Source: Sarcocystis neurona (lineage: Eukaryota; Apicomplexa; Conoidasida; Eucoccidiorida; Sarcocystidae). Taken from it: a stretch of DNA of 64,000 nt. Location of the stretch: the NCBI GenBank assembly GCA_000727475.1, contig KL647290.1:2772695-2836694 (forward strand). The letters are read 5' to 3'. Within the stretch, counting starts at the first letter, position 1. Every line of letters starts with the position of its first letter. The translations under genes were made by a program, and so were the position numbers. Positions 1-64,000 of the stretch are shown one piece after another. Below the pieces are notes generated by a model. It worked only from the letters and a program-made list of their open reading frames with translations, did not search any database and had not been told where the DNA came from.

Positions 1-3000
1 CAAGGCGTCACCTGCTGATGATGCTGCTGCGCACGCTGCTGCTGCGCATGCTGCTGCTGCTCTTGCCGGTGGATCTGGTTCTGCAGCTGATAACGCTGCT
101 GTTCTTCCGTCTGCGGCTGCTGCAGCTTTTGCTGTTGCAGTTGTAGCAGCTGTTGCAGGTGGTCATGGTTGAAGCAAAGCGCGAGGAGGTCTGCGGCAGA
201 GCGCCAGGCGGCTGCTTCGTGCAGCAGCAGGAGCAACTTCTTCGACGGCAGCTGGCGTATGCAGCAGCCGGAGAAGAGTCGCTCCGCCGCAGCATACGCT
301 TGGCCAAAACATTCTTTGCTGCGCACGCACTGCAGGCGCATCTTGGTCGTTTTCTTTCCTTTCCCAGTCTCCACCGGCCCGGCAACAGCCCCACCAGTGG
401 CAGCCACAGCATCGGCAGAATGCCCGTCACCAGCAGCAGCAGGCCAAGCAACGAGGGAGCCGCTGCTGTTTCGCAGAACCAGCGGCCCTCCGCATGCAGG
501 ACAGGTCCTCGGGCATGCACACGCGTCGTCGACATATCGATCCTGCTGCTGCTCCTGCTGCTGCTCCTGCTGCTGCAGTCCTGACCTTCCAGCTGTCTGC
601 TGCTCATTCTTTTCTTTTTGTCCCAGTTGAGAACCGCGAGTCCCCGCCACTACCCTTAGCTGCTGCTGTTGCGTTAATTGATGCTGAATTCGCATGCAAC
701 GCCCGGATGCATTCGCCTGCCTTGCCTCCGGTGCCACCGGTCCTGCTTGTCCTGTTTCTGCTGCTGCAGTTCGTGCGGCTGATCCAGTTGCTGCTGCTAT
801 TTTTGCTGCAGCTGCTGCAGCATCTGCTTCTCCTGTCCCAGTGGCTGAGGTACCTGTTGGTGCGGCTATTGCTGCTGCTACTGCAGCGGCTGCTGCCGCT
901 GAATCCTCCGTAGCCGTCTTTGAGGCACCTGCTGCTGCTCTGCGATGCTTCGGTGCAGCCTGCCCGCTTCCCCGCGCTGGAGGCACCTCTCGCGAGGCTG
1001 CTGCCCCTGTTGCACCCTCGCTACTCCACGTTCCTGTCGCCGGCTCTCGTACGGCAATCCGCGATGGCGTTTTATTCGCTTCTCCTGCTGCCGCCCGCTC
1101 ACTTTTCGACCTGCTCGTCACTGTCGCTGCTACTGCTTTGGCTGCTGCTGCTGCTGCCGTACCAGCACCTGCCCGTTTTCCTCGTGCTGCTGTTGGGGCA
1201 GAGGCGAGACACGCGTCTTCTGCAGCCACTGCTGCTGCGGATGCGCTTGTTGCCACATGCTCGTCCTTTTTTTTTTGAGCTGCCACTTGTGCTGCTGGTG
1301 GACTTTCCCTCTGGCCTGGCGACGGCGCTGCCAACGTTCGCAGCTGTTTCTGTTGCTCTGCAAAAGCACTTGTAGTCTCTTTTAGACTGCCCTGTGTAGC
1401 ACCTGGTGGATCACCTTGGTGTATGTCACTCGACGCAGCGTCGGCCAACGGAGCAGTTTCGACGGCTGCAGCACCCGCAGCCTTCTCTTCTGAAGCCGTG
1501 TCTCTACCGAAAAGGGACGTCGCTTCGTTCGCTGCTCCTGTTGCTGTTGCAGCGAGGCGTCGGCTGCAACCGACGATTGCTAGTTCTGGTGCACTTGGTG
1601 CAGCAGACAAGACGCCTTCTGAAACGGCCGCTGCTGCTGCTAGTGCTGCTCCTTGTAAAAATTCTGCTGGTGTTGCCGCTGCTGCTGCTTGGTATTTGCG
1701 TGTTGCCACCACTGCTACCGCTGCTGCTGCTGAGGTTGCTGCCGCTGCGACGGCGACACTGTCCGGTGGCATTGCGTCTCTTGCTGCTGCAGTGCAGCTC
1801 TTCTTCGCGGTTGCTGCTACTGCTGCTTCGCCTCGCGTCCCCCTCTCTCTGCGGCGTATCGTCCCTGCTGCCGGTCTTGCTGCTGCACTGGGAGCTGCAG
1901 TGGCTGCTGCTGCCGCGAGGGGTGCTGCAGGATTCACATCGTTCTGCTTCTCTGCTGCGTCGGATGTCGCTGCTGTTTCGGCCGCCGCTGCTGCTTCGGC
2001 TGCCGCTGCTGCCGCGCGGGCCTCCCTGCTCCTGCTGCCCACGATCGCAGGCACGGCGCCGCCTACAAGCTGTACGTACACCTCGTCGCCGACTCGCAGG
2101 TGCTGCAGGGCATCCGCGTGGCCAAAAGAAGCACTTCTGACAAGAATATTATTAAGTTTCACTGGCGAGAGAAGGGCGACGCGGTGCAGCGTGCCGTCTA
2201 AGCCAACAGAATAGCAGAGAGAAAGAACGCGAGCTACGGCTATCGGCTGGGGAAACTTGTACGCCAGTGCCCAAGGGGGGGAGCGTCGCAGCAGAGGTGG
2301 CTGCCGCTGCGCGTGCAACGAAGAAATCTTGTATACCACCCCGTCAGATGGGATGCAGCGGAGGGGGAGACGAGACGCAGAGGGACAAACTAAGGCAGCG
2401 GCAGAAGCCTGAGCAGCAGCAGGAATGACAGCAGGAAGAGGAGCAACAGCAGCAGGAGCTGAAGCAGAAACAGTAGCATCGAAATGAGCCAGAGCAGCCG
2501 CACCAGCAGCAAGAGAAGAAGACCCAGCGGCGGGAGCAGAAGCAGGCATAGAAGAAGAAGCAGCAGCAGAGACAGCGAGACGAGCAAGAGAAGCAGCAGC
2601 AAGGGGACCTGCAGCTCCCTCGGACGCAGTAGCCCACGAACCGGCAGCAGCGCTGTATCCTGCAGCCCTGCATACAGTGACCCGTTTGTTAACAGACAGA
2701 GTGGACGCGGCGTGAGAAGGCGCTGTGCGAACGGGAAGCTCATGCGCATCAACTGCTGCCGTGATACCTGCAGCACCCTCTCCTGAAGGGGATGTTGGAT
2801 CGCTAGCCGCTGCACTACCCGCCGCAGAAGAACAAGAAGAAGCAGCGGAAGGCAGTATAACGGAGGGAGATACAGACGTCAGCAGGTTTTCTCCGGAGAG
2901 AGCAAAAGACCTGGAGGAAGAGAAAGACGAGATAGGCGTCTTAGGAAATTGAGAAGAAGCTGCCGATGTTGCTGTCCACGCCACCAACGGCTGAGAAGCA

Positions 3001-5784
3001 CCGTGGACTATCTGCTGTCGCTGCTCCTTTGAAATGGGAGGCACACTCCGGCACGTGCTGCTCCTGCTGTTTGCATCGCCAGTCTGGCTGTTGCTGCTGT
3101 TGCTGCTGCTCGTCTGGTCCGCTTCGCTGGTGACGCTGGCCATACTGGTGTTCCTGCTGCTGCAGCCGCTGCTGCCCCTGGGGCTGCCGCTGTCATGCAA
3201 ATGTGTATAGGAGTGGTTCCTGTGGCTGTTGCTGAAACTGCTGCTGTAGTTTGTGGGAGCACTGCTGCTGCTGTAGCGTCTGCTGCTGCGGTTGTCGCTG
3301 TCCCTGCTGCTGCTGGTGCTGCAACTAGTGTTGCCGCTGCTACGTATGGACGGGTTGCTGCTCCTGTCGCTCTCCCAGCAAGTGCTCCCGCTGCTGCTGC
3401 TGTAGCTGGTGCTGCTGCGATCGTCGCTGTTGCTGTTGTTGCTATCGCTGGTACTTCTGCTATCGCTGTTGCTGCCGCTGCTGTCGCTGTTACTGCCGCT
3501 GCTGTTGCTGTTGCTGCCGCTGCTGTTGCTGTTGCTGCCGCTGCTGTCGCTGTTGCTGCCGCTGCTGTCGCTGTTGTTGCTGCGACTGCACCCGCTCTCA
3601 CTGCTGCAGTCGCCGCTGCTGCAGTGTCTACTGAAAGAGCCGCCGGACATCGCAGCAGCTGCAGCAGAAGCAGGCGCGGACGCCACACCGGCGCAACAGG
3701 GATCGACTGCCAAAAGAGGGACACGCAGCCCACAGTGAGACAATCTCTCCAGCTGCTGCTCAACCGCGTCCACCAACTTCTGCGGCACTGCGGCGAGACT
3801 CATTACCTGCTGCTGCTGCTCTTCCACCGTAACTCCATCGCCTCGACGGGGTTGACGCTGGCCGCTCTTCAATTCACCTGTAGAGTGCTGGTGCTGCCTT
3901 CGCTGTCTGTGGTGTTCCACCATGAGAAGCTGCTTCATGTGCTGCGCTGCCGTCTGACAGCAGCTCTCCTGCTGCTTCTCCCTTTCCCGCTGTTCCTCCT
4001 TCTCCTGATGCACCTCGCTCTCCTGCTGCTCCTCGCTCTCCTGCTGCTCCTCGCTCTCCCGGTGCACCACTTGCTGGTGACGAGGATGTTGCTGCTGTTT
4101 GTTCTCTCCGCCGTCTTCTCCTTCCACCTGCTGCTGCTGTTTCTGGTGGAAGAATCGGAAGGCCTCTTTGCAGTCCAATAACGTGCTGCACGTGCGTGCG
4201 ACATGCAGCGGCGTTAGGAAACCCATAGAATGTAGCAGCAGTAGCAAGTCTTCCTGCGATGAAAGCGGCAGCGCTCGCAGCGGCTGCTGCAGCTGTTCCT
4301 GCCCTTGCTCCTGATGTTGCTGCTGCAAGTCGTGCTTCTCCTGCGACTGCCGTTCCGGTTGCTCCTCCTCTAGCCCCGGCGTCGGCAGCTGCTGCCGTTG
4401 CTGCTGCACCTTTTGCTCCGTCTTCAGCAGCTGCAGGCTTCTGTTGAGTCTGCGTGAAACTTCAGTACTGGAATGCGCTACCGCTGCAGCAGGATCTGCA
4501 GCTGCAAGTGCTGCTGCTCCGCACCCCGATGCTGTTGGCACGAGCCCTTCCCATCGCAGGTCGGAGTTGTCCACTGTTGGTGCTTCTACAGGTGCTCTGT
4601 CTTTTGTTGCTGCTGGAAGGGTCCTTCCTGCTGTCCCTGCTGTTGCTGCTGGGGCGTGGCCGTTTACAACAGCGGCAGATGAGGCAGCAGGGAAAGCTGC
4701 TCCTTGCGGAGGGTTGGACAGCAGACACGCGTCGCCGCTGCCTATGGTGCTGCACAGATTCAACGGTCTCTGCTGCAGCAGCAGCACATCCCCCCTCCCC
4801 TCCGTCTCCACACCTGTTAGAACTGCAGCAGACGGAAACAGCAACCCGCCGCTGCCCGCCCGCTGGACGGAAGCAGCGACGCCTGCAAAAGTAGCAGCAG
4901 CAGGAGCGGCACCAGCACCAACGCCAGGAGCCGGAGCCGCGGAAGAAGTTGCAGGACCAGCACCAGGAGCAGCGGCAGCTCTCTTGATGTGTTTGTGCGC
5001 TGGTATTGCTGGCGCAGATGAATGGCAACCGGGCGGGGAAGGAAACAAGACAGAACCCAGGTGTACGTACACCTCATGATCAGCTCCAGCAGCGAACGAC
5101 TGAGCTTTCGTATGCATTATAGCATGCGGCGTAAAAGAAGAAGAAAGTGCAGGAAGCCGATGCAACAGATGCGGCCAGTGTCGCTGGTGCTGCGGCAGAT
5201 CCCCCTCGACGTACTCCTCCTCGTCAACCGTTGGGCGCTGCGTGGTGCGCCTCTCTAATATTTGTTTTAGCGACAGCTGCTGCTCCCGCTGTGGCAGCTG
5301 CCCTTGGCGCTGCGCGTCCTGGTGCTCTTGCTGCTCTGGTTGTTGGTGCACGTCCCACAGCGCCTCCTGCTGCTGCTCCTGCCGCTGTCTTTGATGCTCG
5401 TTCTGCTGCTGCTGCTGCTCCAACTGCTGTCGCCCGTGCCACACCATTTGCTGCTGCAATTTCTTCTTCATTTGCTGTTGCAACTGCCTGCCCACGTGGT
5501 GCTGGTGTTCTTGCTGCGTTCCTGGCGGATGGTCGCACTCTTTAATCCTCCCCTGCTGCCGCTGGTGCTGGCCCTCCTGCTGCCTGTCCTGCTGCTGCTC
5601 CTGTCGCCGCTGCCCGTCCCGCTGCTGCTCCTGCTGCTCGCCCTGCCGCTGCTGCCGCTGCCCACCCTGCTGCTGCCGCTCCTTCACTTGGCACTGCTGC
5701 TGCTTCTGCTCGACGAGACCGAAGGCTACGAAGCGCAGCAGGTCGCAGTGCTCCCCTGTCCGGGCCAAAGTCCCTGCGGCATGC
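1..5784 (-). CDS. ligA: ligA exon 5: rest of adenylation domain, OB fold, zinc finger and start of HhH, with giant Q/A/S insertions; runs off the edge
   Basis: One frame is open for all 5784 bases (1928 codons) to base 1, starting after a GTGGAGTGCAG acceptor. Conserved blocks and spacers in order: HAAGTLAR and LLRFVAFGLVEQ (5784-5700), Gln-rich (5700-5165), Ala-rich (4990-4460), SQEDLLLLLHSMGF and neighbours (4265-4130), Glu/Gln-rich (4140-3930), Ser/Asn-rich (3650-3060), Ala/Ser-rich (2760-2370), SDGVVYKIS (about 2345-2320), PPWALAYKFPQP (about 2275-2240), OB fold GLDGTLHRVALLSPVKLNN and following (2210-2050), Ala-rich (2040-640), CPACGGPLVLR (about 510-475), LQCVRSKECFGQ (335-300), SKKLLLLLHEA...ADLLAL (265-195) and Gln-rich (190-1). 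The active-site lysines of both downstream motifs are present. Confidence 0.92.
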
Positions 5785-8700
5785 CTGCACTCCACACAGC
5801 AGGTATATATGCAACAGAGAGCAACAGACATACATATTTTGTACAAATAGATTAGGAGTACATAGACAGAAAGACGTGTTCGTCTCACACGCCTACACAC
5901 ATGCATGTATGTGTGTACACGTATATATGTATACATATATCCACCTATTAACAAACGCACCCCAGCAATTGAAACAGAGAGGAACATAAGAAATGTATGT
6001 GTACAAATATGTTGATGTACACGTGTCCAGAAAAGTCTCTCTCTATGTATATATATATATGTACGTATACAGGTGTAAGGTGGTGACCCACATATGTGTG
6101 CGCAGAAATACATACGTGGGTATGAAAGTGGCCACCTGCTCTACGCAGGTCAGCCTCTTCTTCACGCCAGTGTCCACCTCGCCAATCATTCTGCTGCTCT
6201 GCGAGCTGTTGCTGCTCCTGCAGCTGTTGCTGCTTCGTCTGTGCCGTAGCCGCTGCTCCGCGGCCCTGTTGCCGTCACTACTACTACTACTACTACAACT
6301 ACTACTACTAGTACGACTACTACTGTTCCTCCTTGTCCTCCTCCTCCTACAACTACCATGACGACATTGTCAGCTGTCTCCTGCTGCTGTTGCTGTTGCT
6401 TGTGCTCTGCGCTGCTGCGTTCTCGGGGCGCTGTGTGCTGGAGCTGCGCCTGCGCCCAGCCACGCATCCCTGGGGCGGTGATGCAGCTTCTTTTTCTTCT
6501 TCTGAGACTGCGGTGAACTCTTCTGCTACTGCCGTCGTTATGCGTTTCCGCCGCCGCAAGTCATTTCCCTCCCGGCTGCTGTCCTCGTGCTGCTGTCTGC
6601 TGCTGCTGCTCCTAGGTCTCTCTTATTCGTTCTCACTCCTGGTGCTCTGCTGCTCTGCCTGGCTCCCGCTACCCTGCCGCGGCGCTGGTGCGGGTGCTTC
6701 TCTGCTTCTGCCGCGCTTCGGTGCTGCTGCTGCTGCTAGTGCTGCAGATGCTCTACCACTCCGCTGCTGCCGGTGCTGCTCCTCTTTTTTTGCGGAGGCT
6801 TCTGCTGCTGCTCTGGCGTTGCCGCCGCTGCTGCTCTGCTGCTCCTCGTGCCTCCGCTCGAGGACTTCTGCTGCTGTCGCGGCTTACCGCGGATGTAGTA
6901 TAGGGCGTTTGCCAGCAGCACGGCGACGCGAGTTGATGATCTGCAGCTCCGGCAGATCTACAAACAGCTCCCCTCGTACCTGCAGCAGCAGCAACCATTG
7001 CCGCACCGTCACTCGTATGCATCTGTCAACCGTCACTGTGTTGCTGAGGCTGCTTCTCGGCTCTTGCTTTTCTTGCTGCTGCTGCTGCTCTGCTCCTGCT
7101 CCTCTTGCTGCTGCTGCTCTAGCGTTTGCTGCTGTTGCAGCGGTTCTGCGAAAATCGCGGCCGTGGGCTGCCGCAGCACGGCTCGCTGCTGGACCGCGGG
7201 TACTGTGGCTCTGTTGCTGCTGCATGCGGAGCACGCGGTCCTCCATCTCTCTCCGCAGCAGCGTGGGACGGACATTCCCCTACGTCGTCGCCACCTCCTC
7301 GCCGTTATAAAGTCTCGACAAGGGCACTTCAAGACGCCTGCTGCAGCGGCTTGCTACAACAAGTGGGTAGAACGTCCACGGAGTAGCAGCAATCCCCTGC
7401 TGCCCCGCGATAAAATGGATGCATCTGCTTCCGTATACCACTTCCCGCCTTCAGCTGTCGGGTGCTGATGCTGCTGCCTTTCCTGTTCGCGTGTGTGCTG
7501 CTGCTGCAGGAGTTCGTTTCTGCGTGATGCAAACCACCACCACGGCGTCACCGGGCGTCCCTGCCTGCATGTTCGCGTACAGCCCGCTGGGAAAAGAGGG
7601 CGTCTTTCGCTTCTTTCTTTCCCTTTCTCCGTTGTTTCCTTCTTTTTCTGTAGCTTGCGTACTGCTGCTGCTGCTGCAGGTAATGACGCCCCGCTGCGGC
7701 GGGTCCTCTGCCGTTAGGGCTCCTCCCATCCGTCTGTCTATTCTCCACGCCTGCCTCTCGACAGGATCGAGGAACTTGCATGCAGCACTTCTTCTTCTTT
7801 TCCACACTCTTACTGAACCACACCAGAGCCTCTCTATGTCGCGCTCTTGTAGACCTGAAGCAGCCGCGGCTGCTGCTGGTGCTGCCCAAAAGTTCATCTT
7901 TCGTTGCCACCGGCGACCTTGCTGCTGCTCACCGCAAAGCCTCTTCTTTCAGCAGGCAATACAACACCAGCTTTACGTACGACGCCTGCTGGAGCAGCCG
8001 TCCTTGACAGCCTGATACAGATGCTTGCTTGTCTCTATCATTTTCCCAGGGCTGCAGTGGGGAGCGAAGGAGGGGAAGGACGGCAGGGACGGGAGGGCGC
8101 CACGAGTGACCTCCATATATATATATATATATATAGGACAATATAATATGAACGTATATGCATACATACACGTGTCTGACAGGTCTACATATGTATATGT
8201 ACATGTACGTCTATATAGACGGCCACATAAATAATACGCCCGTCGCATGTTGGAACATACGAATGTACGTATATATATATATATATATATGTGGGTGTAG
8301 TTACAGCGTTATACGCATGCATATATATACGTGTACACCGACACATGTATGTCGACGTGCAGCATGCAGGAGGAAACCTGGCTTTACGAGCGTCGAAGAA
8401 GGGAATGCTCACCTCGAGGATCCAGTTTATATCTTCTGCAACAGCAGTACCGACCCATGTCTGGGCGGTCATCTCGGCTGGTGTTGCTGCTGCTGCTTGT
8501 TTGTCTTCTGTTGGATCTTGCTGCGCCCCTCTTGCTCCTGCTGCTGTGAGTTCTGCTGCCGCAGACAACTCTGCTGCTGTTGCTCCTGCTTCTGCCTCTG
8601 TCGCCGCCATTCCGCGGGTTGCCCCCCCGTTTACTAGTGGAAGAAACGCCGGCACTTTCACTCCTGCTGGTGCAGTTGCGCGTCCTTTGCCTGCTGCGCG

Positions 8701-10718
8701 TGCTACTCCGGCAGCTGCTTCTCTTTCTCTGAACCTCTCACCAACTGTTGCTGCTGCTTCGTTTGTTGCCCTCGCATGTCGCAGGGCTGCGGCTGCTGTT
8801 GTGCTTGTTGCTGTGGTGCGCAGCGCTGCTCTGCTGTTTGCTGCTACGCTTGCTGAGGCGCTTGCTGCGGTTGCCCCGGTGGCCGCTGTTGTTCCTGTGG
8901 CGACGATCTCTGTCGCTGTTCCTGCTGCTGTTGCTGCTCTGCGTGACAAAGAAGTGCGACAGTTCACGGAGACTAGCTGCGTCAGGAAACGACGGGGCAA
9001 GCGGCCGGCTGCAGCAGCTCGTTCAACGGCTCCTGAAACGTCTTCTCCCCTTCTTCCGTCCCCGCGCAGCGTGGCATGTAGCAGGTGCCACTCAACAGTA
9101 GCTGCTTTGCTGCTGCCTGTTCCTGGAGGCGCAGCAGCTGCTGCGGCATCGTCAGGCCTTCGGTCGCCGTCCTCTCCGAAGGACGCTGCAGGAGTGCTGT
9201 CCTCCCATGCGAGAGTACGAGTCTGCAGAGCAGCAGCTGCTGCGGCGGCATCGCAAGCAGCAGCAACAGCAACAAGCGAGGCAGCCGGAGGAGAGGCAGC
9301 GGACGCAGCAGGCGCAGCGCAAGATGCAGGAGCAGCAGAAAAAAAAGGAGCTCCCGGAGCAGTCGGAGCAGCAGCGCAGCAAGCAGCAATAGCAGCAGGT
9401 GATGCGGAGGCACCAGTTGATGCGGAAGCACCAGTTGATGCGGAAGCAGCAGGTGGTGCGGCAGCAGCAGGTGACGCGGCAGCAGGAGCCGCACCTGCAC
9501 CCGCAGGAGCACCTGCCTCTGCAGGAAGAGCAGCAGGGCCGCGGCTGCGTAGAAGAAGAGTAGGAAGCGGAGCAGCAGGTGATGATGCGCCAGAGGGAGC
9601 AGCAGCACCAAGAAGAGGAGCTGCAGTAGGAACAAACACTTTCACTGCCTTATACTGCAGCGCGCATGCAACGCCGTCGAACTTCGGCTCCGCTACCAAG
9701 TGAAACGGCAGCGGCACGTCGAAGTCGGCAGCAGCGTCGCTTGTTGTACACGAAGAAGGAGCTGCTCTCTCTCCTCCTCCTTCTCCTGCTGCTTCTCCTC
9801 CTCCTCTGCTGCTGATGCTGGCGCTGCTGTTTCTCGTGCGGGGGCCCCGCGTTCCTTGTGCCTTGGGAAGTCCGGCTCACTGCTGCTGCGGTCCAGCGCA
9901 CTGCTGCTGTCATCGCTGCTGCTGCTGCAGGACTTGCTGCTGTTGCTGTTGCAGAGGACCGCGCTGTTGCTGCGGGATGAGGCGAGACGCGCTGTCGGGA
10001 CGCAGTTCTGCAGAACATTCCACTCCACGCCTGCATAGCTGCAAAGCCATAGCGCAGCAGTGTTAAGGACACGACTACTCTGACTTCTACACGTGACTGA
10101 CACGTATATATATATACATATATTTATGTATATGAACAACTTGACAAACAACGGCGCCTCCGTTAGCTTCTTCATCCGTACCACGGGCACACACATCCGT
10201 AGCGTCGTACACCTCTGTCTTCTCCATCTCTCTCCCTTTTTCAATCTTTTTCTATTTCTGTCGGCCGCCCCCTCTCTTTCTTCAGTACGTACACAAAAAC
10301 ACAAATACATTTATGTATACCTGTATACGTATACTGTGTGTGTGCATGTATATGTGTATGTATACGAGCATTGAGTTACGTAGAACCTACTTGGACCTGC
10401 CTACGTAGAGATATATATATATATGCGAGTGCACGCGCACAGACGTGATGACGCGCACATATTGACCTGTATGTCTTTGAGCTGATGTATGCATTGATGC
10501 ACTTCTTTACTTGTATACCTACACACACACAGAGCGACACACATCCGTATGTATATATATATATATATATACATGTATATATGTATATGTACATATGTAT
10601 ACATGTTGGTATGTTTATTGGTACACACACATAATAATATCTATCTGTCTACCTATCTATCGATATACATGTATATATATATATATAGAGAGAGAGAGAT
10701 TGTTGTGACACATATCCG

Positions 10719-10765
<47 letters not shown>

Positions 10766-13700
10766 NNNNNNNNNNNNNNNNNNNNNNNNNNNNNNNNNNN
10801 NNNNNNNNNNNNNNNNNNNNNNNNNNNNNNNNNNNNNNNNNNNNNNNNNNNNNNNNNNNNNNNNNNNNNNNNNNNNNNNNNNNNNNNNNNNNNNNNNNNN
10901 NNNNNNNNNNNNNNNNNNNNNNNNNNNNNNNNNNNNNNNNNNNNNNNNNNNNNNNNNNNNNNNNNNNNNNNNNNNNNNNNNNNNNNNNNNNNNNNNNNNN
11001 NNNNNNNNNNNNNNNNNNNNNNNNNNNNNNNNNNNNNNNNNNNNNNNNNNNNNNNNNNNNNNNNNNNNNNNNNNNNNNNNNNNNNNNNNNNNNNNNNNNN
11101 NNNNNNNNNNNNNNNNNNNNNNNNNNNNNNNNNNNNNNNNNNNNNNNNNNNNNNNNNNNNNNNNNNNNNNNNNNNNNNNNNNNNNNNNNNNNNNNNNNNN
11201 NNNNNNNNNNNNNNNNNNNNNNNNNNNNNNNNNNNNNNNNNNNNNNNNNNNNNNNNNNNNNNNNNNNNNNNNNNNNNNNNNNNNNNNNNNNNNNNNNNNN
11301 NNNNNNNNNNNNNNNNNNNNNNNNNNNNNNNNNNNNNNNNNNNNNNNNNNNNNNNNNNNNNNNNNNNNNNNNNNNNNNNNNNNNNNNNNNNNNNNNNNNN
11401 NNNNNNNNNNNNNNNNNNNNNNNNNNNNNNNNNNNNNNNNNNNNNNNNNNNNNNNNNNNNNNNNNNNNNNNNNNNNATATATATATATATATGTACATAT
11501 GCATACATATAGGTAAATATGTTGGTACACACACATTATAATATTTATCTGTCTATCTATGTGTATATATATATATATATATATATTTAGATTGTGGGAC
11601 GTCGATATTTCAGCAGCATTCGAGGTGTGCGCGTGTACAGAGAAGAGGAGGTCTTTTTCTGCACACGTGTGTACAGATATATATATATATACATACAAAC
11701 GACGTCCACAAACGCAGACGAAGCGATACACAGACCCCGGTAATACCATCGCCCTTTCAAATATATTCGTATGGATACGTAGCAACTCCTACACATCAGT
11801 GGACCTACGCCTGCATATATATAAGTAAATTTCTACCTTCCTTTTCCTCTACCTGGCTATCCTCCTCTCCCTCTGTGTGTCTCTCTCTGTAGGTATACAT
11901 AGATATATGCATATAAATGCAGCATCGATCTCTCTGTCCTTATCTATATGTGTGTCCACCTACCTACTTGCCTATTTATATATATATATAGGAAGGGGCA
12001 GGGAACACTTTATTTTTCAAGGTGAGGTGTACACGCCTGCGTATGTAGCGCTGCTGTGTGTGCCAGGGTGCTGCAGTAGACTTTGGGGTGTACGTACACC
12101 GCCGTGAGCAGCGAGATACAACATACCTCGCCATTCGTTGAAGAGATTTGCAGAATCCTTGAAAGTCTCTCGCGGCGTCCAGCGACAGCATCGGCGCAAC
12201 GTGCAGATGCGTGTGACGTTTTCTCTTCTTCCACAGCAGCTTCTCCTCCTGCTGCTGCGGCAAAACCTTCTTCGGCTGCTCAGCCACCCGCTGCTCTTCC
12301 TGCTGCTTCTTCTTTCTTCTCTTCTCCCCTTCCACACTCTGTCCACGCTGCTGCAGTTGCCCCTGCCCATGGCGCCGCTGCTCTTCTTGTTGCTGCTGTT
12401 GCTCTCGCTGCTTCTGCTGCTGCTGCTTCCGTCTCTCTTGACGCGTGGCGCCCTGCACTCCCTGCTGCTGCTGCTGCTCGAAAAAGTGCACCTCTTGCTT
12501 CTGCGACGGGTTGCTGCTCTGCTTCCTCACTTTCTCGCTCGAGGAGAAACACAGGTCCACGCGCACTGCTCTGTCTTTCTTCTCTTCTTCCGCAGCTGCT
12601 GCATCTGCCATATTCAACGCAGTTGCTTCCTCTGCACTAGCCGCTGCTGCTTCCGCTCCTAGTGCCCCTCCTCCTCCTCCTCCTCGCGACGCTGCTGTTG
12701 CTGCTGCTGGTGCTGTCTCCTGCTGCATTTGATCTGCAGCAGCTGCTGCATCTTCTCCAGCGTCCTCACGGTGCTGCTGCTGTTGCTCCTCTGTACGTCC
12801 TGCGCTTGCTGCCTGCTGCGACCGTCCGGCTGCTGCTGTCGCTGCTGCCGCGGCTTCTGCCGCAGCCGAAGTGCGCTTGCAGGACCGTCGTCGTTGACGG
12901 GGAGGGGCGCCCACGTAGCTGCTCGGGCTGCTATCGTCCTTCAGAAAGGGGTACTTCTGCAGAAAACCGCACTATCCACAAGAGGGCCCATAGATCCATC
13001 CAGAACTTCTGTCATACATCTATTCACATATTTATCCATGAATACACGTATCAGTCGAGCGTCAAGCAATGCAAATATTCTCACACATACATATATATAT
13101 ATATATATATTTGTCTATCTGTATGTATGTCGATCGAGTAGCGACCGATACGAATATTCTCACATATATATTTATGTATTGTATATCGGTATGTGCATGC
13201 TCCTTGGGCATACAATGTCTGACAGTACCTACAAATATGTATTTGCCTGTTTTCTTGAGTACATGTTTCCCTCTCTTCTTTAATCTATATGCACACACAC
13301 ACACACATCTCCCTCCTTGTACATACTGGCCTTCCACACACACACACATATTATACATATAGTGGTGCTGATATGAGTGTGTGAGGTAGAATAGCAGCGA
13401 CGTTGTAGATCTTCTTCGCATGCAACATCGACGTATGTTTGTGTCTTGATGACGGGCTTCTCTTGCCGTTCGGCTGGGTACGCCTCTCTGTTTTCGTCAC
13501 TCTCTGCTGAGTCACACTCATTCAAATATAAACGCCATGTCCACACACACCATACGCGCGCATGCAGACACACATATCCACAGAGAAGTACATAAACTCA
13601 TAAATATACGTATTTGCACGCTTAACTTTCTTTTTCTCTCTACACACGTTTGTCAGGGTCCTCCTGCTGGTGTGGCTCTCTGCGGTCAAATAATTACATG

Positions 13701-16700
13701 CAGATGAATTGAAGCAGAAGGACGAGGAAGTTTCTGTCTGTCGCTGTGCCGTGAACTACGAGGAGGAAACTGCGAAGAAGTCACTGGGCAGGGACGCACA
13801 TAAATACGCACCTCTCATGAGAAAAAAGGGACACAGAGAGAGACACGTAAATACACACACACACACATACGTATCAAGAGGAAAAGAAAGGACGAGAACT
13901 GTAAACAGATACATACACATATCACAAGAAACGAGAGACACGAATGTAGGGAGATACACACCCGTATCAAGAGAGTGCGACACAGACAGAGACACACACA
14001 CAGAGAGGAATTTAAATAGACACACACACACACAGAGAACAGCAGGGAGACACAGGAATGTAAACGAAGACACACACGGAGAACAGCAGAGACGGGAATG
14101 TAAACGGAGACACACACGCACACAGAGAACAGCAGAGACAGGAACGTAAACGGAGACACACACACAGAGAACAGCAGAGAGGGAGACGGAAATGTAGACG
14201 GAGACAGACAGATATTGTGGGGAAAGGAAGAGAGGGAAATGCAGACTTTCCCGCACACACACACACACATACATATACATCAAGAGAATGGAGAGGACGA
14301 GAGATGAACGTAAATGGAGACCCACACAAATCAAAAGAGAAAAGAAGACAGAGAAGTGCATGTAAATAGACACACACACAAACACACTTGTGAAGTGGAA
14401 AAGAGAGGAAGAGAGAAGTTTGCTCAGTCGCCTGCCAGGTTTAGTACGAACTACACGTAGCACCAGAAAGTCTGGCTCATTATAGAACAACTTCTTCATG
14501 TACGGAGGTCCTTGCTGCTGCTTCAGGATAACCTTCTTGTGTCCAGCCTTCAATACAAAAGAGAAGAGCCGTCCACCAGTGTTGCTTCGTATAAATGGTA
14601 CGCACATATATAGATGCGTATATACAGTCTACCTACGTACCTACCTGTCTGTATATGTAGATGAGGCAGGTGTACGCGTGGACGCGTGTCCTTCACTGAA
14701 TATAAACGTACCTACGTAGCCATCAAGATGTCTATATACATAGACATTCATATATGTATAGATATGTGCGGGCACTAATAACTATATACACATATACAAA
14801 CAAGTCAACTGGTGAAGACATATATGTAGAGAAGCACCAACGGTCACTTGGTAGATGTCCGGGAATATATAGTGAAGGCACGTTCCAGAAGAAAGAGGCA
14901 GCAACAATTTAACGGCTTGGGGGACAAGGGATCCTCCTGGCACGGTGCTCTACATTCAGGTACCTACACAAATATATATGCAGATGACATATATATATAT
15001 ATAAATGTATGTCCACTGCACTCCCTGCACATGCATTATATCAGACATTATATATTGCGTGCACGCACGTACATACATATTAGAGATAGGTATATTAGAC
15101 TCTTATATCTTTTTAGAGAATACTGATGCTAACGAATACACACCTATATATATGAATAGATATGAGTACTCCACTTTTCTCGCAAATCAACTACGTCACA
15201 TAGAACATACCTAGATATATGTACGGATATACAGGAACCCAAGATGGGTCCAGGACAACACATATATATGTACAGGAGCCCATAATGGGTATACGACATA
15301 CTCCTACACAGTCGTATACACATGCGTGTATATATGTGTGTGTATGTATAGGAAGTTCCCCCGTCTGGTAAGTTTCTCTATCTGTCTGCCTTTCCGTCTC
15401 TTCCTGTCCCTCTCTTCGTCTTTTCCTCTCTCAATGTGCCTGCGTGTGTCTCTATCTGCTGGTGTCCGGGGATAGATGGCAGATCTGCATCCCGTAGATT
15501 TGCCCACGACGGAGAGACCGAGGCTGCAGAGCAGATGTGTTTAGGACTGCAGAAGGCGTCGAAGTATTTTCCTGCCACCGTGTGCGGCCCACATTTTCGA
15601 TGTCAAGGAGACGGTCCTTCAGACGGTCATAGACGACATCGGGGAGGCGAGACGCCGCATGCAAATGGTACGTCTCGTCGCACAGCAGCAGCTGCGCGCG
15701 AAGCCTCTTCCACTCCTGCAGCACCACCTGAGGCACTGCCCCACACTGGCCGACTCCTCCTCGCAGCAGTCCTGCTCCTGCTGCTGCTCGCCTCTCTGCT
15801 GTGTCATGTGCTGCACCTGCTCCTCTCCCTCCTGTTGTCGCCACCTGTGTCACTCCGCTTGCCGCTGCTTCCCCTGCTGTTGTCTCTACTGCTGCCGCCA
15901 GTGGTAGATCCGCTTCTGCTGCTGTTTCCGCTGCTGCTGCTGCTTCTTCTGCTGCTGTTGGTGGTACTGTTGCTCGTGTTGGGGCAGGCAAGAGCACTGC
16001 TTCTGCGGGTGGCGCTGCTGCTGCGCCCGGCGTTGGAGCAGAGGAGAATAAAACGTCGCTTCTCTCCTGCAGGTGCTGCGGTAGAGCTGCTGCATGTCGT
16101 CGGACGTCTTCTCCGCTGCACGCACTGGTCAAAGCTGCTGCTGAGGCAGCAGACAACGTTGTGTTGCAGCAGCCGACCTGTCTTTGCCGTTGGTTCTTCT
16201 GCTGCTGCTCGGCTGCTGCTGCAGCAGCACGTCCGTCGTTGGGTATCCCCTTTTTGTTGCTGCTGCTGCTGCAGTGCCGCCGGAAAATCCTAGCAGATGA
16301 AGCAGCAGCAGTGCAGCAGCAGCAGACACCTCTCGTTAGAACTGGGAAGTTGACGGACCTTCGAAAACTCGCAGCAGCAGCAGACTTCCACACAGCAGCA
16401 GGTGCGGCACGAGGCCTCCATACCGCGGCAACGATTACGGCAGCAGCAGCCGCTCCAAGAGAAGCAGCTCCGTCAGCTGCAGGTCTACCACATGCAGCTA
16501 ACAGATGAATAACTGCAGCAGCAGAAGAGGGGAGTTGCTGCAGCAACTGCACCTGTTGTACGTGCTGGGCGTGCCGCGACTTCGCTTGCGGCAGAAGCGC
16601 TGCTTCTTCGTCTTGCTGCAGCTGACAGCTGCTGCAGCAACGACGACGTAATTGCCTGACGTGCTGCGCCTTCAGCAGCGCAGCCCAGTTGCTGCGAGTC

Positions 16701-17293
16701 TCTCTCACCCAGTCTGTCGCTGTTCCAAAAGAAGAAGTTGCTCCTGTTGCTGCTGCTGTGGCCGCAACGAAGGGAAAGCGGTGACGCCATTTTGCTGCCG
16801 TTGCTGCTCCTCCGAAGCACATGTGAAGACTCTCTCTCGTTGCGCCTGATCCTGCTGCTGGCACTTGTTCTCCTCTTTCCCCTGCTCTGCTCGCCGACGA
16901 TGCTTCTGCCGCTAACGTTGCTTCTGCCGCTGCTCTTGCTGCTGTCGTTGCTGTTGCTGCTGTCGTTGCTGTTGCTGCTGTCGTTGCTGTTGCTGCTGCC
17001 GCTGCTGTTGCTGCTGCCGTTGCTGCTGCAAATGCAGCAGCAGGGAGAGCGTAGACAGCAAGAGCAGACGCAACAGGGACAGCAGGCGCAGAGGAAGAAG
17101 CAGCAGCAGCCGAGGCACCAGGACCCTGTGCAACAGTAGCAGCGGAGCAGCCAGACGGCGCAGCAGCAGTAGCAACAGCCCCACGTGCAGCAGCAAGCAG
17201 AGAGGCAGCAGGTGCGGCAGCAGAACGGGAGCCTATCTCGGCAAACACAAGACGATAAACCAAGCGGCCCATCACCGCAGGCTCAAGCATCAT
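1..17293 (-). CDS. ligA: NAD+-dependent DNA ligase (LigA family), five exons, truncated by the left window edge
   Basis: The product would seal nicks in DNA using NAD+ as AMP donor (ligase-adenylate, then DNA-adenylate, then sealing). Exons, in transcription order: 15593-15715 (open upstream to 17293), 12127-12956, 8413-9739, 6888-6979 and 1-5784. Every junction has GT-AG ends and matching phase. Blocks appear in LigA order: domain Ia (Y,H,D,Y,D residues kept), DSPT-like and PMLSLD, adenylation site AEPKFDG, TLRGDGRRGED, VRGELF, AAGTL, SDGVVYKIS, WALAYKFP, OB fold, then a C-x2-C ... C-x5-C zinc finger and the start of the HhH region. Introns and homopolymeric insertions show it is a eukaryotic nuclear gene, not a bacterial contaminant. 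The HhH remainder and any BRCT domain lie left of the window. The start is uncertain. The family is known from bacteria and a few viruses; an organellar role (apicoplast or mitochondrion) is my inference. Family assignment is secure, exon 1 length is not. Confidence 0.92.
5785..6887 (-). other. ligA intron 4
   Basis: GTAAGC donor and GTGCAG acceptor. It holds TA/TG microsatellites (5880-6090), a CTA/ACT triplet run (about 6275-6330) and CTG-rich DNA. I see no coding block. Confidence 0.75.
6888..6979 (-). CDS. ligA: ligA exon 4: VRGE block of the adenylation domain
   Basis: A 92-base exon between a CTGCTGCAG acceptor and a CG/GTAAGC donor. It encodes VRGELFVDLPEL...NSRRRAAGKRPILHP plus two bases of an Arg codon. 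This matches LigA VRGEVFMxxxxFexLNxxRxxxGxxxFANPR. The Arg codon is completed by the first base of exon 5, which continues HAAGTL, the counterpart of NAAAGSLR. It has no insertion, unlike its neighbours. Confidence 0.93.
6980..8412 (-). other. ligA intron 3
   Basis: GTGAGC donor and CTGCAG acceptor. It holds CTG-rich DNA (7070-7700) and (TA)n/TATG tracts (8110-8350). I see no conserved block. Confidence 0.75.
8413..9739 (-). CDS. ligA: ligA exon 3: adenylation domain with KxDG catalytic lysine
   Basis: Begins after TACAACAAG with one base completing a Ser codon, then ADFDVPLPFHLVAEPKFDG. The lysine in AEPKFDG (codon at 9684-9682) is the residue that becomes AMP-linked in NAD+ ligases. About 155 Ala-rich residues are inserted before WHLLHATLRGDGRRGEDVS, the ATRGDGxxGED motif that normally follows within about 20 residues. 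A second Ala/Thr-rich insertion leads to AEDINWILE at a CTCGAG/GTGAGC donor. It splices in phase 0 to VRGELF in exon 4, recreating the LEVRGE block. Length 1327 bases fits the phases exactly. Confidence 0.9.
9740..12126 (-). other. ligA intron 2, containing the assembly gap
   Basis: GTATGT donor and AACAAG acceptor. Mostly (TA)n, TATG and CACA microsatellites (10100-12000) around a 711-base N run. Confidence 0.75.
10766..11476. other. Assembly gap (711 N) inside a microsatellite array
   Basis: A run of N flanked on both sides by (TA)n. The unique-looking sequence on each side is related, so the gap lies inside a repeat. True length is unknown. Confidence 0.99.
12127..12956 (-). CDS. ligA: ligA exon 2: end of domain Ia through the PMLSLD motif
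   Basis: The exon follows a TTTTCTGCAG acceptor and opens with KYPFLKDDSSPSSYVGAPP, the counterpart of LigA HPEL...DSPTQRVG. A Gln/Glu/Lys-rich and Ala-rich insertion of about 220 residues follows. It then returns to HLHVAPMLSLDAARDFQGF, matching the invariant H-x-PMLSLDN block that links domain Ia to the adenylation domain. It ends AG before a GTATGT donor at 12126, phase 2. Length is 830 bases, consistent with phase 0 in and phase 2 out. Confidence 0.85.
12957..15592 (-). other. ligA intron 1 of the exon 1 to 2 junction
   Basis: GTGGGC donor (weak) and TTTTCTGCAG acceptor. It contains TA/CA microsatellites, a GACA/CACA-rich stretch with a minisatellite (14035-14207), and a segment at 14430-14610 that reads like protein on the minus strand (KAGHKKVILKQQQGPPYMKK) but matches no ligase block. 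Confidence 0.65.
14035..14207. repeat. Minisatellite, about 4 units of 40-46 bp
   Basis: Units begin GAGAACAGCAG and end with a GTAAACGGAGACACACAC-type stretch. Copies differ by small substitutions and by CACA length. It lies in a ligA intron within a longer CACA/GACA-rich tract. Confidence 0.85.
15593..17293 (-). CDS. ligA: ligA exon 1: domain Ia (secure 15593-15715) with a possible long Ala-rich N-terminal extension
   Basis: Bases 15715-15593 encode 41 residues matching LigA domain Ia, the NMN-binding part. In the block ETYHLHAASRLPDVVYD the Tyr, His, Asp, Tyr and Asp line up with E. coli Y22, H23, D32, Y35 and D36. The exon ends ...DIEN before a GTGGGC donor, in phase 0, and exon 2 continues KYPFLKDD. 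A CTGCAG acceptor just before 15715 would make this a short exon. Alternatively the same frame is open up to a stop at 17359, with two adjacent ATGs at 17293-17288 followed by MLEPAVMGRLVYRLVF and an Ala/Gln-rich stretch, which could carry organelle-targeting information. CTG-rich DNA stays open by chance, so the extension is weak evidence. Confidence 0.7.
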
Positions 17294-58291: not shown

Positions 58292-61200
58292 GTGTATACG
58301 CGTGTGTCTGGCGCCGGCTCACATACGCCTGCATATAAAGACATCTACACGTGTGTGGAGCTCGCTGATAAGCTCGCTCTCATACGCGTATCTGCACAAA
58401 TATATAGATATACTGAGGCGGGTTACAAGGAGTCGTATGTATATATACGTATGTGTGTCAGGAGCTGTTCGCTGCCATACATATGCATATATAGATATGG
58501 ACGCGGTGCTGGCTCCCACGAGAGAAATATATTCACACCTAGTTGAGCCTGGCACACATGCATATGTATGCGGACGTACATCTACGTGGATCTGAAGCTG
58601 CTGGCTTCCACCTGTGTACGTACATACAAAGACGTATGTACACATATTCGAAGCTGCCTTACAAGAACGACGTACGCGCATGCGTAGGTCTACCACAGAT
58701 ATTCGGACAGCCGACCACCTGTAGAAGCGACTGGCGTCCGTAGAAGTCTACAGACAGCCCTCCCTCCCGTACATCTATACATGTATATATATGGAGAGAG
58801 ACAGCGACTAAGTATATACGGAGGGGAGGGAGGTATGCGTCTTCGAAGCAACGTGTGTGTATATATTTTATCCATATGTCGGCCGTTCGCACGCCGCGAC
58901 ATCACGGCAGTATGCGGAGGCTGCCTGTGTTTCTCTGAACACGTAGGAAGTGCGCTGCAGACGCCTTGCTGCTGCATTTCCTTCTGCATGCGTGCGTCTG
59001 TCACGTGAAGAAGAAGAAAACGAAAGGCAGCAGTAGCCACTACACTCGCAGATCTCCAGGGCTGCTGCAGCCCAGAGTCGGCTGACCTAGAGGAGTCATG
59101 CATGCCGCCCAGTCCCGCACGGCGAACAGCAAAATTGTCTTCGGCGTGCTGCACTCGCACATCACGTTCAGAACAGCAGACACAGACGGTGACGCACATT
59201 CATATATATATGGAAACCCACAGGACTACTTGCACGCATGCATAAATATATATATATTCAGGTTGCAAGCGTAGATAAATGTATGTGTGCCAGTACATAT
59301 GCACTGGCACTTACACACACAGGCGGACGCCCACCCGCATGTGTATGCACGGAGAGCAACCTTTAAATGCACATGCAAATACACACATATACATATATAT
59401 ATGTACGTAGAGAAAGCAATAAATGTACACATACTTACGTAGAGGTACCCTTCTTTGCAGACACATGCAAATACATATATGTACATATATTAGCAGTTCG
59501 TGAGAAGAGGGAGATATATACTGGTATGTCTATCTGTATGGGGACTGACAAGCAAACACATCCCCCTGCGGGTGCATGCATACACATCTGTGCATACATC
59601 CATCCATGGTCCCCCCGACGATGAGGCAGTACCCAGCAGTATACCCATACAAGTCCACAGAAACGAAGAAGAGAAGCGGAGACCCGAGGGAAGCTGCTGC
59701 TGCAGCCTCTCTGCAGCACGGCGCCAGTGACGACGCGGAGGTCACTTTGACTGACGTCGAGACACGAAGAAAGTGCCTGCAGCGCCCAGCGAAAAACGAC
59801 CGGACCGCGAGACACAGAGAGCGAAAATCGAAAACCGGAGGACGCGTCAGCGCGAAGGAGACGCAGGAAGCGAAGGAAACGGGGCGCGGGCGGAAGGCGG
59901 TGGTCCGAAGAGACCACGCGGTCCCCCACGCTGTCTGCGGCGTCTCCTGCCCGCTCTCCCCCTGTGCCCTTTTCCTTTTTTTATCATTTGTCCTTTTCTT
60001 GGCCTCCTCTGTCTGTCCACGTCTTTTGGCTGTCCTTCTTCTCTTCTACGCCTCTCCATCTCTATTCCTGCTGTCTCTGTGTCTCTCGCGCTGAACTTCT
60101 GCTGCTCGATGATTTCCCCCTTCTGGCATTTTTCCTCCGCCCTCGCCCTACGCTGTTCTCTTCCCTCGCCTCCTCCACGAGGACGTCCGCCTCCTCCAAG
60201 AGGACGTCCGCCTCCTCCCCCCCCTCTGCCCCTCCTCTTCTCTTCTCCTGAACTTCCTTCACCAGCTGTCCCTTTCTTCGCACTGCCCCTTTCTTGCTTC
60301 TCCTCTGCCGCCGCCTTCTCTTCCCTGTTGCTGGCGGGCCCACGACTCCCTCTACGGGCGTACCCCCTCCTTCACGCGCACACTTTGCCACGCAGAAGGT
60401 GACCACTGCCCTCTCCTCCGGCACCACGGGCGGCGGCAGCAAAGCCACCAGCAACAAAGGCAGCAGATGCAGCAGAGGTAGCACCAGCAGCAGCAGAGGT
60501 AGCACCAGCAGCAGCAGAGGTAACAGCAGCAGCAGCAGAGGTAGCAGCAGCAGCACAGGCAGAAGAAGCAGCAGCAGCACAGGCAGAAGAAGCAGCAGCG
60601 GCGCGACGTACTTTTTTTCTTGAGCGAAGAGTTCGAGGTTCACTTCGAGCACCGTGCGCAGGAGACCGTAGCCGGAGGAAGTGAAGTTGCCGAGACTCTG
60701 GTACCAGGTGTTAATAATTAAACAGTCGGCAAGAGCAAGAGCAAACAGCGCGCTTCGATATTCGAACGTCTGGCGATCTTCTCCTCTTTCTCGGCTATCA
60801 ATGCCCTCCACATCTACTACTATACACGCTGGGGCTGCTCGGGCTTCGGCTGCCGTTGTGCCTGCAGAAAAACAAGAGGTAGGAGAAGCAGCGCGGACGA
60901 GACCGTCTCGTTCTCGTGCTTCTCTTCCTTCCCGCACAGAAGAAGCAGCAGCATCAGCAGCAGCACTGGCAGCATCGCGGCCAAGCCAAATTCCCTTCGT
61001 TGTCTGGGAGTGCCCCAAGAGATGATCCATTACTTGAAATTGGCAACCGAAGAGCGCGTTCACCAAGGAGCCTGGAGAGTCCACAAAAAAGGGAGAGGAA
61101 GAAAGGAAGCAGCCGCATCAAAAACAGAACAAATTCGCAGCAGCTGCAGCAGCAGCCGCACACAAAAGACACGGCACGTGCAGAGGCACCACCAGCAGCA

Positions 61201-63194: not shown

Positions 63195-64000
63195 CTGCGG
63201 ACGCAGACAGCCAGGGAGGCAAATCGTGTGCGGCGGCGCTGCTGCTGCTCTGCTGTTGCTGCGGCTGGCTGAACAGTTTCGACGCGCGAAGAAGAAAAAG
63301 CAGCAGCAGCCGCAGGAGCAGCAGAGACAGAGGGTCGCGAACGACCCTCACACGGAGACGCCGTGCCACAGAGAGGACCCAACAGCAGAGGGACAGACAC
63401 ACACACGTGTGGCCTTCGGCCAGTTGACAGGCAGAGAGACAAAAACAGCAGACGCAGCGCGACTGAGAAAAAGTGCTGCAAAAAGTGTGCAGCACGACGT
63501 GCTCCCGTTGGGGTGTACATACACAGACTCACCATCACGCACGTAGTAGACGTGGACGTCTGTTGGAGGAGGAGTCACACATTCACACACACATATATAT
63601 ACATGGATACACACATACAGGTACACATGTACGCGAAGATGCGGGCTCATATGAGTACACGTATATACACACATTTGTACGCTTAGACAGCCACCACGTC
63701 CATGTACGGGATTCGCAGCAAAGGCGAGCCGCGCAGTGTTCTTCGGAGTCGAGCAGTCGTCCGTCTCAGTCGACACTCCACCACGCCTCACAACCGAAGC
63801 GAGTTCCTGCGTCTTTCTCCATACATACTTTCACATACACGTCTATCTACATAGGTGCCATAAGCCGCTATCTGTATGTGGACGGCGACGTCTGTATATA
63901 TACCGGCCTCTACGACATACATATGTGTACATACGTTTACGTAAATGTGTGTGTCTGCGTGTATCCCTTTATACACACGAACAGCGCGAAAGAGAAAAAG
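63195..64000. other. 5' flank or unmapped first exon(s) of SEY1
   Basis: Contains a CAG-rich part (63230-63340), an open minus frame to 63538 and a possible 27-base exon near 63541-63567 (acceptor CCTCCAACAG, donor GTGAGT) whose phase does not fit. Microsatellites follow. No promoter element could be supported. Confidence 0.4.

Follow-up and report, generated by a model that had tools for sequence, protein, structure and literature searches.

A LigA-type NAD+-dependent DNA ligase gene with predicted introns on a Sarcocystis neurona contig

As a reference for DNA ligases that depend on nicotinamide adenine dinucleotide (NAD+) we used the LigA protein of Escherichia coli (PDB 4glx/2owo). It was compared with a gene on the minus strand of a 64,000-nucleotide stretch of Sarcocystis neurona DNA (assembly GCA_000727475.1, contig KL647290.1, positions 2,772,695 to 2,836,694), in the following called the window. 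Both share the same order of domain Ia, nucleotidyl-transferase motifs, OB fold, four-cysteine finger and HhH region, and E. coli LigA is 29% identical to the ligase core of the gene in the alignment. In contrast to E. coli LigA the gene has predicted introns and 2,959 residues outside the core, and no BRCT domain was found in the downstream frames scanned.

NAD+-dependent ligases have been noted in eukaryotes before. A passage of a 2025 paper mentions such a ligase as annotated in the genome of Toxoplasma gondii and as not observed in Plasmodium (PMC12838351). The T. gondii ligase belongs to the same enzyme class and likewise to an apicomplexan genome, the two being likened by description only. 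A tree of NAD-dependent ligases from 2009 contains eukaryotic rows, and the legend of its Figure 1 includes Ostreococcus and Dictyostelium (PMC2806865); these ligases are NAD-dependent and eukaryotic like the one described here, again by description only. Since eukaryotic and Toxoplasma enzymes had already been noted, the novelty of the gene is moderate and smaller than claimed by the initial annotation, which had been made from the DNA sequence without database searches. Among the open-licence papers listed by literature searches, none was a dedicated study of a coccidian gene of this kind. PMC12838348 mentions ligase as a reagent only, and NAD does not occur in PMC3890036. In summary, the gene product is divergent and swollen by inserts, belongs to a known enzyme family and is, for a eukaryote, uncommon but not unprecedented.

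The window contains a nuclear, intron-split protist gene for a LigA-type NAD+-dependent ligase. Six-frame reading and motif mapping located domain Ia, EPKFDG, RGDG, EVRGE, DGVVYK, AYKFP, OB fold, four-cysteine finger and HhH region on the minus strand in LigA order (Table 1). The gene model consists of five predicted exons with GT-AG splice sites, which join into one open frame of 3,570 residues without internal stop. This agrees with the initial annotation, which had described the LigA motifs as being in order and in phase. The same annotation had placed the gene at positions 1 to 17293. The upper coordinate coincides with the predicted start ATG; the lower one falls short, as the coding frame crosses the window edge and reaches its stop 884 bases beyond window position 1 in the flanking DNA. 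Predicted exon 5 thus extends from 5784 to -884, and the HhH region (VVENIKRSG, LPDWLLNRVAVFY), which starts inside the window, continues beyond position 1 before the stop is reached.

At three of the predicted junctions, neighbouring LigA motifs follow one another with no residue lost or added, and the phases match. These were: DIEN/KYPFL, WILE/VRGEL and HPR/HAAG, where the slash marks the junction. For the acceptor of exon 3, nine in-frame AG candidates lie between 9832 and 9739. Predicted exon 1 and the start codon were taken from the open frame alone. Triplet repeats also lengthen frames on the opposite strand, for example one of 490 amino acids at 8231-9703 plus, so that frame length by itself is weak evidence. 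The ligase core amounts to 611 of the 3,570 predicted residues and is distributed over 12 collinear pieces; the non-core residues consist of Ala-, Gln- and Ser-rich inserts and a 522-residue N-terminal extension.

The core used for profile searches was trimmed by eye from the predicted protein, and such trimming favours a match. The trimmed core matched NCBIfam LigA with 221 bits (E 2.9e-65; core residues 4-559, profile positions 1-528 of 664) and DNA_ligase_aden (PF01653) with 94.4 bits (cut-off 27), and its best PDB match was the E. coli LigA structure 4glx (E 7.5e-35). No NCBIfam family matched the reversed core, used as a control, at E<=1. The last-exon open frame was also searched untrimmed (window part, 2,046 residues). 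It matched NCBIfam LigA PRK07956 with 63.4 bits (E 1.5e-17) and DNA_ligase_OB (PF03120) with 34.0 bits (cut-off 32.9; 33.9 bits on the core); PF01653 gave 22.8 bits, below its cut-off of 27. The adenylation domain and the OB fold named in the initial annotation were both recovered, and its central claim, a LigA-class ligase from an intron-containing nuclear gene, is upheld by the profile matches, the three exact junctions and the empty control. Judged from its predicted sequence, the encoded protein is almost certainly a LigA-class DNA ligase.

Several results weigh against this identification. The joining of the exons is predicted from the DNA sequence. When exons 1, 3, 4 and 5 were scanned singly, three of the four frames gave weak matches or none: exon 1 matched NCBIfam LigB at E 0.011 and no Pfam family at E<=1, exon 3 (open frame 9876-8188) matched NCBIfam dnlj at E 0.0018 and PF01653 at E 0.0089, and exon 4 (131 amino acids) matched PF01653 at E 0.063 and nothing in NCBIfam at E<=1. 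For the curated NCBIfam LigA equivalog models, the scores of 221 and 212.3 bits stayed below the cut-offs (369 and 444.45 bits). Furthermore, a BRCT domain was not found in a scan that covered 10 of the downstream frames. Folding is not assured either, because the 2,959 residues outside the core lie in part within the catalytic domain. With regard to the BRCT domain, the predicted stop follows soon after the HhH region and two of the matching proteins, P0001 and P0005, likewise have none; a C-terminal BRCT domain is usual in LigA but not universal.

Pfam Nlig-Ia matched the core weakly (E 0.12, under the cut-off). A separate Pfam HhH match at E<=1 was absent on the core; the HhH region lies within the NCBIfam LigA alignment. 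For the finger, DNA_ligase_ZBD had been proposed as a check and gave no match at E<=1 in the exon frames or the trimmed core, with only weak Zn_ribbon_Top1 matches (E 0.034 and 0.0095). The cysteine pattern itself, C-x2-C and C-x5-C, was confirmed: C424, C427, C449 and C455 (numbering along the core) are invariant among 16 aligned sequences. A six-frame PF01653 search of the whole genome (123 Mb, 74 contigs) listed no match at E<=0.001, which we attribute to the splitting of the domain over exons.

Besides the core and E. coli LigA, the 16 sequences included 14 proteins selected from the matches; 51 columns of their alignment were invariant. In domain Ia, Y20, D30 and D34 were invariant, and the five residues listed by the initial annotation (Tyr, His, Asp, Tyr, Asp) all line up with their counterparts in E. 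coli LigA. The EPKFDG motif contributed E116, K118, D120 and G121. Further invariant residues were R142, G143, G145, R189, G190 and E191 as well as D313, G314, K318 and K342. The roles of the catalytic residues are known from work on bacterial LigA. By analogy with the family, domain Ia would bind the nicotinamide mononucleotide (NMN) half of NAD+ and the EPKFDG lysine would take up adenosine monophosphate (AMP), with release of NMN. The AMP would then move to the 5' phosphate of the nick, which would be closed by the 3' hydroxyl, while OB fold, finger and HhH region would clamp the nick. On the strength of the conserved sequence the enzyme is very likely to be catalytically active.

A search of a protein collection gave 237 matches at E<=0.001 among 8,000 candidates scored, with identities of 24-33% in the 120 listed. 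Fully source-named proteins among the matches listed were bacterial or archaeal. Genome contigs contained at least 587 relatives, 80 of which span many phyla at 25-31% identity, and viral contigs contained 495, of which 80 were kept. No close relative was present among the matches listed from proteins, genome contigs or viral contigs. Longer homologues were not found in two protein-collection searches (8,000 candidates with an ill-chosen alanine-rich query, and 868 candidates), a result of little weight. A search of plasmids for LigA showed no cyanobacterium among the 60 of 239 records listed.

Two of the matching proteins, P0001 and P0005, together with P0002 have N-termini that resemble signal peptides by eye, which is odd for a DNA ligase. 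Protein P0113 (903 residues) is a LigA that is extended at its N-terminus and carries Asp/Gly/Ser-rich inserts. From its sequence it looks as if it came from an alga, another eukaryote or a virus, and it may be a further eukaryotic LigA.

Two quick trees, of 58 rows (14 viral) and 34 rows (five viral), contained the bacterial and viral LigA sequences that the initial annotation had suggested for comparison and no cyanobacterial LigA; neither of them placed the core or its bacterial source. The core branch measured 4 to 5 changes per column in both. In the 58-row tree the core stood at the midpoint root beside P0113, flagged as a meeting of long branches, and was not grouped with the 14 viral rows. 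In the 34-row tree it joined four of the five viral rows with an unstarred support of 85, within a starred set of nine rows, and E. coli LigA was nearest to the core by path length. Holding the core together with three alphaproteobacterial rows raised the likelihood of this tree above that of the free tree (p-AU 0.918). LigA from viral contigs belongs to the same class and is near the core in one of the two trees, on long branches, and a kinship is not supported.

We propose that the gene was acquired from a bacterial-type source, has since been interrupted by spliceosomal introns and has grown through low-complexity repeats. As one explanation, a bacterial-type origin, a nuclear gene and LigA function with a likely organelle role appear to us somewhat better than an even proposition.

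The location of the enzyme bears on a second ligase of the same genome. On another contig, C8, a separate DNA ligase dependent on adenosine triphosphate (ATP) was found (PF01068, 132.3 bits; stretch L004 730-3084), and its ligase frame carries low-complexity inserts in the style of the LigA gene. With this separate gene present, a DNA-containing organelle is the most likely site of action of the NAD+ enzyme; the initial annotation, too, had suggested a role in apicoplast or mitochondrial DNA replication as an attractive possibility. Location in an organelle is in our opinion probable, the apicoplast being the most likely first candidate; for the apicoplast in particular we consider the chances about even. 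A set of Synechocystis orthologues that occur in T. gondii, N. caninum or P. falciparum (at least one of the three) and are regarded as putative apicoplast-targeted proteins includes a DNA ligase of unstated type (PMC4465681, in part). In the available portion of a paper on apicoplast replication in T. gondii, Prex, gyrase and SSB are named, and the one mention of a ligase falls in a list of replication proteins from bacteria (PMC8113025).

Other data speak against an organelle role. At the predicted N-terminus a signal peptide is not clearly recognisable, the first exon itself being uncertain. In Plasmodium, according to the passages available, pull-downs linked the single ATP-dependent ligase to DNA of the nucleus, the apicoplast and the mitochondrion; the same enzyme, Lig1, is mainly nuclear and was not detected in the organelles by microscopy (PMC12838351). 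Because the Plasmodium ligase was pulled down with organelle DNA, an organelle may not need LigA. For the red alga C. merolae, one eukaryotic-type ligase is stated to reach both plastid and mitochondrion (PMC4166229, PMC3914683, in part).

A real LigA-derived gene could also act in the nucleus or the mitochondrion and not in the plastid, which we regard as possible and the less probable case. It would fit the lack of a recognisable signal peptide, and the first 120 residues, with five K/R versus two D/E, are at least as compatible with a mitochondrial as with a plastid presequence. Among the 12-residue stretches that start within the first 70 residues, the most hydrophobic ones contain much Ala, Val and Pro or Leu. 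Dictyostelium has no plastid. Its name stands in the legend of the tree of NAD-dependent ligases (PMC2806865). On the other hand, the ATP-dependent ligase can provide for ligation in the nucleus, and the ligase of unstated type in the three-apicomplexan orthologue set points towards the apicoplast.

A second alternative is a decaying relic, in which the frame has stayed open in a repeat-rich gene and the enzyme is dead. The very long branch, the inserts within the catalytic core, HhH motifs that are weak by eye and the repeats that lengthen chance frames at this locus would be in line with it. However, the frame is open across 3,570 predicted codons and the catalytic residues and four cysteines are kept in place, and we consider a relic very unlikely.

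Bacterial DNA contaminating or misassembled into the assembly was rejected and has in our view a negligible probability: although the protein family is bacterial and an assembly gap lies inside predicted intron 2, GT-AG introns split LigA motifs and yet preserve frame and alignment, the genome's own ATP-dependent ligase has inserts of the same style, the host contig measures 6.2 Mb and carries an RHD3-type GTPase exon on the same strand, and the identities of just 24-33% leave no close relative among the bacterial matches listed. Taken together, the splicing, the inserts and the distance from known bacteria speak strongly against contamination. The initial annotation had likewise excluded a bacterial contaminant, on account of the introns and homopolymer insertions.

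The GTPase exon is located at 60065-61117 minus (PF05879, E 1.6e-34), and its family is one which we take to be eukaryotic. The frame at 62882-63574 minus resembles a further RHD3-type GTPase exon by eye, without a Pfam match at E<=0.01. Of seven other window frames examined, six were without a Pfam match at E<=0.01, and the seventh had a match that stayed under the cut-off. No Rfam family reached its gathering score in the window. Pfam PF11054, an Eimeria surface antigen family, had no match in the genome, nor did any control genome give one. Within predicted intron 1, repeated units of the ACACA/GAGAACAGCAGAGA type were seen by eye (window 14000-14400 plus).

Table 1. Positions of predicted exons, ligase motifs and the assembly gap in the window (^ marks the predicted splice point)
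Feature	Position	Strand	Content or basis
Predicted exon 1	15593..17293	-	start ATG, Ala-rich N-terminal extension, domain Ia (DETYHLHAASRLPDVVYDRLKDRLLDIEN); donor GAAAAT^GTGGGC
Domain Ia motif VYDRLKDRLLDIEN	15634-15593	-	motif mapping
Predicted exon 2	12127..12956	-	KYPFLKDDSSPSSYVG, low-complexity insert, PMLSLD; acceptor TTTTCTGCAG^AAG, donor GCGAG^GTATGT
PMLSLD	from 12194	-	motif mapping
Assembly gap, 711 N	10766..11476		inside predicted intron 2; AT repeats on flanks
Predicted exon 3	8413..~9832, 5' end uncertain	-	EPKFDG, insert, RGDGRRGED; donor CTCGAG^GTGAGC
EPKFDG	9690-9673	-	motif mapping
RGDGRRGED	9066-9040	-	motif mapping
Predicted exon 4 (92 bases)	6888..6979	-	VRGELFVDLPELQIINSRRRAAGKRPILHPR; acceptor CTGCTGCAG^GTACGAGG (exon side GTACG), donor CCGCG^GTAAGC
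VRGELFVD	6979-6956	-	motif mapping
PILHPR	6904-6887	-	motif mapping
Predicted exon 5, window part	1..5784	-	HAAGTLAR, RFVAFG, DGVVYK, AYKFP, OB fold, C4 finger, HhH start
Predicted exon 5 acceptor	5784	-	GAGTGCAG^GCATGCC
HAAGTLARTG	5783-5754	-	motif mapping
Adenylation domain end (DGVVYK, AYKFP) and OB fold (LQHLRVGDEVYVQLVGG)	2058..2345	-	DNA_ligase_OB, NCBIfam LigA matches
DGVVYK	2345-2328	-	motif mapping
AYKFP	2264-2250	-	motif mapping
OB-fold stretch	2108-2058	-	motif mapping
Four-cysteine finger	300..515	-	C-x2-C and C-x5-C, 54 residues between
C-x2-C	within 515-486	-	motif mapping
C-x5-C	within 329-300	-	motif mapping

The plastid ligase of Arabidopsis is called unclear in passages of two papers from 2014 (PMC4166229, PMC3914683). 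For some lineages it is not settled which ligase closes nicks in plastid DNA. The complete LigA core described here, from a nuclear genome of coccidian-like character, is a concrete candidate. With a core of only 611 among 3,570 predicted residues the protein is also an extreme case for an enzyme. Tentatively, and at somewhat less than even chances, we suggest that coccidia kept a dedicated NAD+-using LigA for replication of the apicoplast genome, which was lost in Plasmodium, where the single ATP-dependent ligase would serve every compartment. LigA is interesting as a target because, to our knowledge, it has no counterpart in animals. If the suggestion is true, the coccidian apicoplast would depend on NAD+ for nick sealing, a step that LigA inhibitors may then be able to block.

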